Shown here piece after piece: positions 1 to 4,490 of a DNA stretch of 64,000 nt. The stretch is taken from the NCBI GenBank assembly GCA_902826455.1, contig CADEEV010000025.1, forward strand, positions 1-64,000, written 5' to 3'. This DNA comes from an uncultured Acidobacteriota bacterium (lineage in GTDB: Bacteria; Acidobacteriota; Vicinamibacteria; Fen-336). Both the position numbers and the translations under genes were made by a program. A model generated the notes under the pieces. It had not been told where the DNA came from. It did not search any database and saw nothing but the letters and a program-made list of their open reading frames with translations. Numbering within the stretch: the stretch's first letter is position 1; each line of letters begins with the position of its first letter.

Positions 1-561
1 CTGGGATGGGAGTGGAAGTCGAAGGCCGGCAACCCGATCGTCTGCGTGCCGGGCTGCACGATCCAACCCGACAACCTGTCCGAGACGATCCTGTACCTGC
101 TCTACCAGGCGACGGGCGCCGCGCCGATGATCCCGCTCGACGAGTGCCTGCGGCCGAAGTGGCTGTTCGGCGCGACGGTCCACGAGGGCTGCGACCGCGC
201 GGGCTACTACGAGCAAGGCGACTTCACGAAGGAGTACGGCTCGCCCAAGTGCCTCGTGAAGATCGGCTGCTGGGGCCCGGTCGTGAAGTGCAACGTCCCC
301 AAGCGCGGCTGGATCAACGGCGTCGGCGGCTGCCCCAACGTGGGCGGCATCTGTATCGGCTGCACGATGCCGGGCTTCCCGGACAAGTTCATGCCGTTCA
401 TGGACGAGCCCCCCGGCAGCAAGGTGTCGACCGCCGCCAGCGGCCTGTACGGCACCTTCATCCGCGCGCTCCGCGGCATCACCGCGGCCACCGTGGACAG
501 GGAGCCGAAGTGGCGCCACCGGCGCCCCGAGCTCACGACCGGCCACACGAAGACCTGGTGA
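1..561 (+). CDS. hhyS: [NiFe]-hydrogenase small subunit, group 1h (C-terminal part)
   Basis: The gene is cut by the left window edge; 186 codons are visible. This subunit carries the iron-sulfur relay that takes electrons from the NiFe site. In the visible part H61, C64, C84 and C90 fit the distal cluster (HEGC, then two single Cys). C97, C111, C118 and C121 (ending CIGC, followed by PGFPD) fit the medial cluster. There is no C-terminal membrane helix, as is usual for group 1h and unlike membrane-bound group 1d enzymes. The Asp ligand typical of the group 1h proximal cluster lies upstream and cannot be checked. The group is assigned mainly from the adjacent large subunit, 24 bp downstream. 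Confidence 0.93.
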   Translation: MGWEWKSKAGNPIVCVPGCTIQPDNLSETILYLLYQATGAAPMIPLDECLRPKWLFGATVHEGCDRAGYYEQGDFTKEYGSPKCLVKIGCWGPVVKCNVPKRGWINGVGGCPNVGGICIGCTMPGFPDKFMPFMDEPPGSKVSTAASGLYGTFIRALRGITAATVDREPKWRHRRPELTTGHTKTW

Positions 562-585: not shown

Positions 586-2379
586 ATGGCGACGACCACG
601 CGACCGATCACGAAGGTTCCGGGCACCAACCTGGTCGAGATGAACTGGGACCCGATCACCCGCATCGTCGGCAGCCTCGGCATCTACACGAAGATCGACT
701 TCGGCCAGCGCAAGGTGGCCGAGTGCCATAGCACCTCGTCGATCTTCCGGGGCTACAGCATCTTCATGAAAGGGAAGGACCCGCGCGATTCCCACTTCAT
801 CACCAGCCGCATCTGCGGGATCTGCGGCGACAACCACGCGACCTGCTCGGTCTACAACCAGAACATGGCCTACGGCGTGCGGCCGCCCCACCTGGCCGAG
901 TGGATCGTGAACCTCGGCGAGGCCGCCGAGTACATGTTCGACCACAACATCTTCCAGGAGAACCTGGTCGGGGTCGACTACTGCGAGAAGATGATCCGCG
1001 AGACGAACCCCGGCGTGTGGGAGAAGGCGGCCCACACCGCCGCTCCCAACGAACAGGCCCACGGCTACAAGACGATCGGGGACATCATGAAGTCCCTGAA
1101 CCCGTTCGAGGGCGAGTTCTACCGCGAGGCGCTCCAGGTGAGCCGCTACACGCGGGAGATGTTCTGCCTGATGGAAGGGCGCCACGTCCATCCCTCGACG
1201 CTGTATCCCGGCGGCGTCGGCACGGTCGCGACGGTGCAGCTCTTCACCGACTACATGGCGCGGCTGATGCGCTACGTGGAATTCATGAAGCGCGTCGTGC
1301 CGCTGCACGACGACCTGTTCGACTTCATGTACCAGGCTCTCCCCGGCTACGAGAAGGTCGGCCAGCGTCGCATCCTGCTCGGCTGCTGGGGCGCGTTCCA
1401 GAACCCGGAGTACTGCAACTTCAGCTACCGCGACATGACGAACTGGGGCCGGAAGATGTACGTGACCCCCGGCGTCGTGGTGGATGGCAAGCTCGTCACC
1501 ACCGATCTCGTCGAGATCAACCTCGGCATCCGGATCCTCCTCGGCAGCTCCTTCTACGACGACTGGACCGGCCAGGAGACGTTCGTCTCGAAGGATCCCC
1601 TGGGGAACCCCGTCGACCGCCGGCATCCCTGGAACCAGCACACCCTGCCCAAGCCGCAGAAGCGCGACTTCGGCGGCAAGTACAGCTGGGTGATGTCGCC
1701 GCGCTGGTTCGACGGCAAGGACCACCTGGCCCTCGACACCGGGGGCGGGCCCATCGCGCGCCTCTGGACGACGGCCCTCGCGGGCCTCGTGGACTGCGGC
1801 TACGTGAAGGCCACGGGCAGCAGCGTCCAGATCCACCTCCCGCGCACGGCGCTCAAGCCCGAGGTCTCCTTCGAGTGGAAGATCCCGAAGTGGTCGAACG
1901 CGATCGAGCGCAACCGCGCGCGCACCTACTTCCAGGCCTATGCCGCGGGCTGCGCGCTCTACTTCCTGGAGCAGGCGTTCAAGGAGATCCGGGCGGGTCA
2001 CACGAAGACCTGGGAGCCGTTCACGGTGCCGAAGGACGGCATCGGCTGCGGCTTCACCGAGGCGGTGCGCGGCGTGCTCTCGCACCACATGGTGATCCGC
2101 GACGGAAAGATCGCGAACTACCATCCCTACCCGCCCACGCCCTGGAACGCGAACCCCCGCGACAGCTACGGCACCCTCGGGCCCTACGAGGACGCGGTGC
2201 AGAACACGCCGATCTTCGAGGAGAACCCGCCCGAGAAGTTCAAGGGCATCGACATCATGCGCGCCGTGCGCAGCTTCGACCCGTGCCTGCCGTGCGGCGT
2301 CCACATGTATCTCGGCGACGGGCGGGTCGTGGAGCAGCGGCACTCCCCGATGACGCTCACCGACGTGGATCTGACGTAA
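586..2379 (+). CDS. hhyL: [NiFe]-hydrogenase large subunit, group 1h
   Basis: Catalytic subunit that binds the Ni-Fe(CN)2CO site and oxidises H2. 597 aa. The N-terminal Ni-ligand motif RICGICGDNH has C77 and C80. The C-terminal motif DPCLPCGVH has C567 and C570 and is followed by a 24-residue tail that the maturation protease should remove after H573. The sequence closely resembles the actinobacterial Hhy/Hyd2-type large subunits (for example the segments SSIFRGYSIFMKGKDPRD and WDPITRIVGSLGIYTKIDFG), which are high-affinity enzymes able to use atmospheric H2. ATG start with a purine-rich GAGGGGGAG upstream. Second gene of the operon. Confidence 0.96.
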   Translation: MATTTRPITKVPGTNLVEMNWDPITRIVGSLGIYTKIDFGQRKVAECHSTSSIFRGYSIFMKGKDPRDSHFITSRICGICGDNHATCSVYNQNMAYGVRPPHLAEWIVNLGEAAEYMFDHNIFQENLVGVDYCEKMIRETNPGVWEKAAHTAAPNEQAHGYKTIGDIMKSLNPFEGEFYREALQVSRYTREMFCLMEGRHVHPSTLYPGGVGTVATVQLFTDYMARLMRYVEFMKRVVPLHDDLFDFMYQALPGYEKVGQRRILLGCWGAFQNPEYCNFSYRDMTNWGRKMYVTPGVVVDGKLVTTDLVEINLGIRILLGSSFYDDWTGQETFVSKDPLGNPVDRRHPWNQHTLPKPQKRDFGGKYSWVMSPRWFDGKDHLALDTGGGPIARLWTTALAGLVDCGYVKATGSSVQIHLPRTALKPEVSFEWKIPKWSNAIERNRARTYFQAYAAGCALYFLEQAFKEIRAGHTKTWEPFTVPKDGIGCGFTEAVRGVLSHHMVIRDGKIANYHPYPPTPWNANPRDSYGTLGPYEDAVQNTPIFEENPPEKFKGIDIMRAVRSFDPCLPCGVHMYLGDGRVVEQRHSPMTLTDVDLT

Positions 2380-2389
2380 GCCCGAACGC

Positions 2390-3253
2390 GTGGAGAACCG
2401 CGACCTTCGTGCGGTCGGCGACCGGATCGAGGAGCTGGTCGGGGCCCTCGGCGCGTCTCCCGATCCTCGCGCGCGAGAGCAGGGCGAGGAGCTCGTCCGG
2501 CTGCTCATGGAGATCTACGGAGCCGGGCTCGCGCGGGTCGTGGAGCTCGCGCCCGAGCTCGGCGAGCGTCTCGCCGACGATCCGCTCGTCGCGAGCCTGC
2601 TCGTGCTCCATGGGCTGCATCCCCTCGACACCGACACGCGCATCCGCAAGGCTCTCGACGGCGTCCGGCCCTACCTCGGCTCCCACGGCGGCGGCGTGCA
2701 CTTCGTGGGCGTCGAGAACGACGTGGCGATGCTGCGGCTCGAAGGCAGCTGCGACGGCTGCCCGTCCTCGACGGTCACCGTGAAGCTCGCGATCGAGAAG
2801 GCCCTGCTCGAGGCCGCCCCCGAGATCAGCCGGGTCCACGTCGAGAACGTGACCGAGCCGGCTCCGGCGAGCCCGCTGCTCCAGATCCAGCGCCGCAAGG
2901 GGAGCCCGCCCGGCGCGGCCCTCGGCCCGGGCGAATGGATCCGCCTCGGCTCGGCCCCGCTCTTCGACGGCTCCGACGTCGCGGCCGTGGACGTGGCCGG
3001 CCAGCGCGTCGTCGTCTGCCGGGTCGGCGAGAGCCTCTACGCCTACCGCGACGCCTGCGCGTGCGGCTCGCTGCTCGCCACCGCCTCGCTCCACGAGGGC
3101 CTGCTGACGTGCCCGACCTGCGCGCGGCGCTTCGACCTCAAGGCCGCGGGACGCTGCCTCGACGACGCGGCGCGTCACCTCGAGCCGCTGCCGCTCCTGG
3201 ACGAGAGCGGCACGGTGCGCATCGCGGTGCCCATGGCCCTCGGAGCCGCATGA
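2390..3253 (+). CDS. NifU-domain / Rieske-like iron-sulfur protein of the hydrogenase cluster (HhyE/HucE-like)
   Basis: 287 aa, GTG start 10 bp after hhyL. Residues about 80-150 form a NifU C-terminal-type domain with the Cys pair C121-x2-C124 (CDGC). Residues about 180-285 resemble a Rieske/ferredoxin fold. The cluster motif there is C223-x-C225-x15-C241-x2-C244, so both histidines of a classical Rieske site (CxH, CxxH) are replaced by Cys. NifU/Rieske proteins called HucE/HhyE accompany uptake hydrogenases and are proposed to pass electrons to the respiratory chain; that role is inferred here from position and architecture. The cofactor could be an all-Cys [2Fe-2S] or a rubredoxin-like metal site. 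Confidence 0.82.
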   Translation: MENRDLRAVGDRIEELVGALGASPDPRAREQGEELVRLLMEIYGAGLARVVELAPELGERLADDPLVASLLVLHGLHPLDTDTRIRKALDGVRPYLGSHGGGVHFVGVENDVAMLRLEGSCDGCPSSTVTVKLAIEKALLEAAPEISRVHVENVTEPAPASPLLQIQRRKGSPPGAALGPGEWIRLGSAPLFDGSDVAAVDVAGQRVVVCRVGESLYAYRDACACGSLLATASLHEGLLTCPTCARRFDLKAAGRCLDDAARHLEPLPLLDESGTVRIAVPMALGAA

Positions 3254-3849
3254 AGCTCCGGCGGTTCCTCGAGCCGCCGGCCCCTCGAGCGCCCGCGGGC
3301 GAGGCGTGCGAGTTCTGCAACGTCCCGATCGGCGAGCCCCACGCCCACGTCGTCCAGGTCGAGCAGCGCCGCTTGATGTGCGCGTGCCGGCCCTGCTACT
3401 TCCTGTTCGCGCCCGAGGGCGCCGCCGCCGGCAAGTACCGCGCGGTGCCCGAACGCTACCTCGCCTTCGGCGCCCAGGCCGTCAGCCACGGGCAATGGGA
3501 CCGCCTCCAGGTTCCGGTCGACATGGCGTTCTTCTTCCACAACTCGAGCCAGAACCGCACCGTGGCCTTCTACCCGAGTCCGGCCGGCGCCACGGAGTCG
3601 CTGCTGCCGATGGACACGTGGGCGGAGCTCGTGGCCGAGAACCCGCACCTGCGCGACCTCGCGGCCGACGTCGAGGCGCTGCTCATCTACAGGCGCCGCG
3701 GCACCTTCGAGTCCTACCTGGTGCCGATCGACGCCTGCTACGAGCTGGTCGGCCGCGTGAAGCGCCACTGGAAGGGCTTCGACGGCGGCGAGGACGCCTG
3801 GCGGGAGATCGAGGCGTTCTTCGACGGCGTGCGGGAGCGGGCCTCGTGA
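3250..3849 (+). CDS. DUF5947-like protein of hydrogenase cluster
   Basis: 199 aa. The ATG overlaps the previous stop (ATGA), implying translational coupling. The N-terminal third has a possible metal site: CEFCN near residue 22 followed by CACRPC near residue 44, so five Cys in about 30 residues. No signal peptide or membrane segment. From memory this matches the DUF5947 family, repeatedly found in group 1h and related hydrogenase operons; its biochemical role is unknown. The Cys cluster suggests metal binding or an assembly function, which is inference only. Confidence 0.8.
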   Translation: MKLRRFLEPPAPRAPAGEACEFCNVPIGEPHAHVVQVEQRRLMCACRPCYFLFAPEGAAAGKYRAVPERYLAFGAQAVSHGQWDRLQVPVDMAFFFHNSSQNRTVAFYPSPAGATESLLPMDTWAELVAENPHLRDLAADVEALLIYRRRGTFESYLVPIDACYELVGRVKRHWKGFDGGEDAWREIEAFFDGVRERAS

Positions 3850-4490
3850 CGCAGCTCGCCTTCCGCGTCGTGGGGGCTCGCGCCGAGCCCTACGCCGCGG
3901 TGCCGACGCTCATGCTGCGACTGCGCGTCGACGAGACGAGCGGCGAGAAGGTCCACGCCCTGGCGCTGCGCGCCCAGGTCCAGATCGAGCCCCGCCGCCG
4001 CCACTACGACGTCGCGGAGAGCGCGCAGCTCTTCGAGCTGTTCGGGGAACCGGGCCGCTTCGGCGACACCCTGCGCACGCTGCTGTGGACCCACGTGCAG
4101 GTCGTGCTGCCGGGCTTCCAGGGCTCGACCGAGGTGGACCTGCCGATCGTCTGCACCTACGACTTCGAGGTCGCGGCCGCGAAGTACCTGCAGGCCCTCG
4201 CCGGCGGCGAGATCCCGCTGCTCCTGCTCTTCAGCGGGACGGTCTTCGTCCAGGGCGAGACGGGCTTCAGCGTCGAGCCGGTGTCCTGGGACAAGGAGGC
4301 GGCGTTCGCGCTGCCGGTCGCCGTGTGGCGCGGCGTCATGGACCGGTACTTTCCCGACAGCGCCTGGCTCCGCCTGCGCCGCGACAGCTTCGAGGCGCTC
4401 TACCGCTTCAAGAGCGAGCGCTCCCTGCCGACCTGGGAGGCGGCGGTCGAGGCGCTCCTCTCCGAGGTGGACGCGGGGAAGCCCGCATGA
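3846..4490 (+). CDS. DUF6084-like protein of hydrogenase cluster
   Basis: 214 aa, GTG start overlapping the preceding TGA (GTGA). No signal peptide, membrane helix or Cys cluster is seen. The protein looks cytosolic and mixed alpha/beta, with several YDFEV/RYF-type hydrophobic strands. It fits the DUF6084 family, which I recall as a conserved neighbour of these hydrogenases. The function is unknown. Tight coupling to both neighbours argues for a structural or assembly role acting at fixed stoichiometry with them. Confidence 0.78.
   Translation: MTQLAFRVVGARAEPYAAVPTLMLRLRVDETSGEKVHALALRAQVQIEPRRRHYDVAESAQLFELFGEPGRFGDTLRTLLWTHVQVVLPGFQGSTEVDLPIVCTYDFEVAAAKYLQALAGGEIPLLLLFSGTVFVQGETGFSVEPVSWDKEAAFALPVAVWRGVMDRYFPDSAWLRLRRDSFEALYRFKSERSLPTWEAAVEALLSEVDAGKPA

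Follow-up and report, generated by a model that had tools for sequence, protein, structure and literature searches.

HhyE of an Acidobacteriota group 1h hydrogenase operon with a shortened form of the family's four-cysteine site on a Rieske-fold domain

The protein encoded directly after the group 1h [NiFe]-hydrogenase large subunit in the 64,000 nucleotides analysed here (the window; contig CADEEV010000025.1 of an uncultured Acidobacteriota bacterium) is best explained as an ordinary HhyE with a rubredoxin-like Fe(Cys)4 or Zn(Cys)4 site on a Rieske fold, maybe weakened in this genome, that would serve the hydrogenase in its assembly or as an accessory protein; the probability of this reading is put at roughly 0.57. 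The four-cysteine site is a known feature of the HhyE family, and what is new, as judged from the alignments, is the first ligand pair of the window protein, shorter by one residue. HhyE is required for atmospheric H2 oxidation by the group 1h enzyme in M. smegmatis. The Rieske fold with rubredoxin-type ligands makes a simple prediction, namely mononuclear Fe or Zn and not [2Fe-2S]. The CxC pair of the window corresponds in nature to a variant that, when engineered, assembled its cluster poorly.

The features of the operon and of the protein are as follows.

1..561, forward strand: 3' part of hhyS (hydrogenase small subunit), truncated by the window start (Pfam NiFe_hyd_SSU_C)
586..2379, forward strand: hhyL, group 1h [NiFe]-hydrogenase large subunit (Pfam NiFeSe_Hases)
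2390..3253, forward strand: hhyE, 287 aa, in frame from a GTG start to a TGA stop, with a NifU-like domain and a C-terminal Rieske-fold domain
2642..2836, forward strand: NifU-like domain, residues 85-149 (Pfam PF01106, 81 bits; CxxC of C121 and C124; PDB match CnfU 2z51)
2936..3226, forward strand: C-terminal domain, residues 183-279, predicted Rieske fold (Pfam Rieske; AlphaFold2 model; Foldseek TM about 0.8 against Rieske ferredoxins)
3056..3064, forward strand: first ligand pair C223-x-C225, CxC here and CxxC in 51 of the 51 relatives examined
3110..3121, forward strand: second ligand pair C241-x2-C244, invariant among HhyE
3250..3849, forward strand: DUF5947 gene, in overlap with the stop codon of hhyE (Pfam PF19372, 245.9 bits; conserved Cys/His motif)
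3846..4490, forward strand: DUF6084 gene (Pfam PF19562, 306 bits)

After the DUF6084 gene follow genes for a protein of unknown family and for a hydrogenase maturation protease. The window HhyL is 79% identical to a Cupriavidus necator H16 enzyme of the actinobacterial type (group 1h), against only 24% identity to the large subunit of a Thermus NHL-type operon, and no second [NiFe] large subunit was found in the genome. The protein was therefore identified as HhyE from its neighbours (group 1h hhyL, DUF5947 and DUF6084) and from this single large subunit. HhyE of M. smegmatis (MSMEG_2718) has the same NifU-like and C-terminal four-cysteine domains, and its gene likewise stands directly after hhyL and before the DUF5947 and DUF6084 genes (PMC6883350); it differs from the window protein in its first pair, CxxC instead of the CxC left by a one-residue deletion. 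The nearest full-length relative of the window HhyE is that of locus L067 (59% identity), and the NifU cysteines C121 and C124 are invariant among the aligned full-length HhyE.

The Rieske-like character of the C-terminal domain, proposed in the first-pass annotation, was borne out, and a Rieske-ferredoxin fold, more than a chance pattern, is the reading of the structural models. Residues 184-259 score 22.9 bits with Pfam Rieske (PF00355), above the cut-off of 20.3, and Rieske is the most frequent family over this domain, being found in 15 of 21 members. In the AlphaFold2 model of the window protein, built from 22 HhyE sequences, the C-terminal core reaches a block pLDDT of 91-97, and its best PDB matches are the Rieske ferredoxins 5bok, 2qpz and 4nbc, with TM of 0.80-0.83 of target; the model of the CxxC-type relative L067 is likewise a Rieske fold, so that both forms of the first pair are predicted with this fold. 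The predicted fold is thus like that of the Rieske-type ferredoxins 5bok, 2qpz and CarAc (TM about 0.8), whereas both of their His ligands are lacking in the window. NirD proteins were also among the fold matches, NirD being a Rieske-fold protein that is not known to carry a cluster. The C-terminal profiles of HhyE and HucE are homologous with a probability of 98.5%, and HucE of the group 2a enzymes (e.g., Thermus L120) shares the layout of NifU and Rieske-fold domains. A zinc ribbon alone was rejected, because the zinc-ribbon families that score in some members do so over the knuckles only and the zinc-finger PDB matches span the cysteine stretch only, while both models are full Rieske folds.

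The cysteines C223, C225, C241 and C244 (codons 3056-3058, 3062-3064, 3110-3112 and 3119-3121) stand where they had been reported in the 287-residue frame, and no His occupies a ligand position in the window protein, which thus has four Cys in place of the true Rieske set CxH...CxxH retained by HucE (L120-L122). Cysteine at the former His positions proved to be a clade feature, as an alignment of homologues had been expected to decide: the other full-length HhyE, collected from group 1h loci of genome contigs, from the window's phylum, from a mycobacterial plasmid and from actinobacterial genomes, carry four Cys in all 51 cases, with His at none of the ligand positions, and the four Cys columns are invariant in the 22 aligned sequences. 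Conserved His ligands elsewhere, which would have spoken against the site, were not found, no conserved His column being present at either ligand loop of the aligned HhyE. The all-cysteine site as such is not novel, since Islam et al. in 2019 had already described HhyE with two C-terminal CxxC motifs and HucE with a His-containing Rieske motif (PMC6883350). Of these two HhyE hallmarks, the second is kept as CxxC in the window and the first is reduced to CxC, with the Cys columns retained; the pair of motifs is not strictly defining for the family, as truncated HhyE lack the whole domain.

The pattern in the window is C-x1-C-x15-C-x2-C, against C-x2-C-x15..23-C-x2-C in the 51 relatives; one of them, L025, has CACSNC, in which a CxxC is still present. 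Thus, the two CxxC knuckles of the rubredoxin type are present in all the relatives and not in the window protein, whose CxC first pair occurs in one genome only. The loop following the second Cys can be aligned without gaps to that of the relatives with a 15-residue loop, and therefore the missing residue was placed inside the first knuckle. The "exact Rieske spacing" noted earlier holds nominally, as CxC-x15-CxxC; however, the distance from ligand 1 to ligand 3 is 19 residues both in HucE (CxH-x16-C) and in short-loop HhyE (C-x2-C-x15-C) and 18 in the window because of the deletion, so this spacing was not retained from the ancestor. A sequencing error behind the deletion would need an exact loss of three bases, which only the reads could exclude. 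The domain is otherwise well kept, with a profile score of 118.7 bits against 123.9 for L067, and the CxC form may accordingly be fully functional.

Equivalent ligand patterns have been engineered into the Rieske ferredoxin ARF of Sulfolobus solfataricus, as reviewed by Iwasaki (PMC2946596). The variant H44I/K45C/H64C, corresponding to the CxxC/CxxC of the HhyE family, formed mononuclear Fe(Cys)4, whereas in H44C/H64C, corresponding to the CxC/CxxC of the window, the cluster assembly was largely impaired; His44Cys alone failed to assemble a cluster and His64Cys alone assembled a low-potential [2Fe-2S] cluster (PMC2946596). These are laboratory mutants of an archaeal ferredoxin and not of a hydrogenase protein. 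By analogy with them, a mononuclear site is expected in the HhyE family, and weaker metal binding in the window form. The Rieske His/Cys ligands have given way across the HhyE family to four Cys in the rubredoxin spacing (CxxC and CxxC), most likely binding one Fe or Zn and no [2Fe-2S] cluster, and the window site, with one residue fewer in its first CxxC, is probably a strained or weakened form with a presumably reduced metal affinity. Against this reading it counts that the effect of CxC is extrapolated from an archaeal mutant and that CxC is confined to one genome.

The first-pass annotation had instead proposed an all-Cys site that would have a much lower potential than a true Rieske centre and would change the exit of electrons from the hydrogenase. 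On this reading, a low-potential all-Cys [2Fe-2S] centre, relaying electrons from the enzyme within a Rieske fold, would be consistent with the fold, with four Cys in two ligand loops at the nominal CxC-x15-CxxC spacing, with the cluster of ARF His64Cys and with the electron-transfer leaning of PMC6883350. The failed or largely failed assembly in ARF H44C and H44C/H64C (PMC2946596) argues against it, as do the poor fit of a strongly negative centre to atmospheric H2, the potential of which is about -136 mV (PMC10017518), the dispensability of the domain across many operons and the lack of these Cys in the C. necator homologue; we regard it as quite unlikely. That the deletion reverted a rubredoxin-like mononuclear site to a binuclear CxC/CxxC one, giving a natural all-Cys [2Fe-2S] cluster in a Rieske fold, is very unlikely.

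The distribution of the domain bears on its role. It is absent in 66 of 94 group 1h operons, in a sample rich in Streptomyces, the proportions of which should not be over-read, and on the large-subunit tree its presence or absence changes 8 times, at least 5 of them on supported branches. The homologue on the megaplasmid of C. necator H16 (L123:5989-6564) has neither the NifU CxxC nor any of the C-terminal domain, and its one cysteine lies in neither motif. Because the domain is so often lost where the enzyme is kept, and because both Cys sites are missing from the homologue of C. necator, the C-terminal Cys site is unlikely to be an obligatory electron exit; the repeated natural loss argues against a necessary relay via these cysteines, and the changed electron exit proposed earlier is likewise not supported. 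In the truncated HhyE, a six-frame profile search of each locus for the C-terminal domain in another frame found none except in L074.

The genetic data from M. smegmatis bear on both roles. HhyE and HucE are both required for H2 uptake, and the artificial acceptor NBT does not make up for the loss of either (PMC6883350), which likewise speaks against the proposed change in electron exit. The same authors favour an electron-transfer role and name an assembly role as possible, and cite native gels on which HhyE migrated together with HhyL and HhyS (PMC6883350); both their preference and this co-migration stand against our reading. In a later review (PMC10657181), the 2019 paper is the reference given for further proteins of assembly and maturation. 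Purified Huc was shown by Grinter et al. in 2023 to reduce menaquinone directly, HucE being unmentioned (PMC10017518); however, Huc is a group 2a and not a group 1h enzyme, which weakens its bearing on HhyE.

It is also conceivable, while unlikely on balance, that in the organisms keeping the domain a rubredoxin-like Fe(Cys)4 site near 0 mV relays electrons from HhyS to menaquinone. Rubredoxin potentials would suit atmospheric H2, which counts in favour of such a relay. The mononuclear site obtained with CxxC/CxxC in the engineered Rieske fold (PMC2946596) and the co-migration of HhyE with the hydrogenase point the same way, whereas the lack of the domain in the 66 operons and the failure of NBT to bypass the loss of HhyE (PMC6883350) point away from it. 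An assembly or accessory role would fit better than a relay. Under this preferred reading, HhyE would most likely act on the group 1h hydrogenase as an assembly or accessory factor and not as the obligatory electron exit, with a putative part in maturation; its NifU part may deliver a cluster to the hydrogenase, and its C-terminal part may provide metal-stabilised docking, or thiol or iron chemistry.

The repeated loss is also consistent with a further explanation, in which the site is a structural Zn site or a decaying metal-free one and the domain is heading for loss in the lineage, CxC being an early step. The nearest relatives by the NifU region (L134, L135 and L039) are already without the full C-terminal domain, L135 retaining a stub only; most truncated streptomycete HhyE (e.g., L063, L066 and L117) have CxC (GGCGCG), one residue shorter, in place of the NifU CxxC, which is lost in other truncated HhyE; and NirD, among the fold matches, shows that a Rieske fold can persist without a cluster. 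In the window, nevertheless, all four Cys are preserved along with the remainder of the domain, with a score close to that of L067. This explanation is regarded as unlikely. A joint loss of the C-terminal domain and the NifU CxxC was not significant: all informative pairs agree in direction, 3.6 to 0, with a median p of 0.125.

Several minor observations were made in the same loci. The NifU CxC of truncated streptomycete HhyE is the same kind of shortening as that in the C-terminal knuckle of the window. The hhyE of L074 changes frame within the C-terminal domain, and the hhyL of G388 (L033/L036) is split over two frames, by decay or assembly error in each case. In L135 (G550), HhyE with its remaining stub of the C-terminal domain continues into DUF6084 within a single open frame, and DUF5947 is missing from between the two. 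In L016 (G043), an HhyE/HucE-like protein (ORF 1474-2352, reverse strand) encoded next to a hydrogenase large subunit has CxA and not CxH as the first pair, while its second Rieske pair stays CxxH and its NifU CxxC is lost. The DUF5947 protein of the window (3250-3849) contains the motif C20xxC23-x7-H31xH33-x10-C44xC46xxC49. This motif, conserved at 88-89 of the 91 group 1h loci, is a candidate metal site of more universal occurrence than either of those in HhyE.
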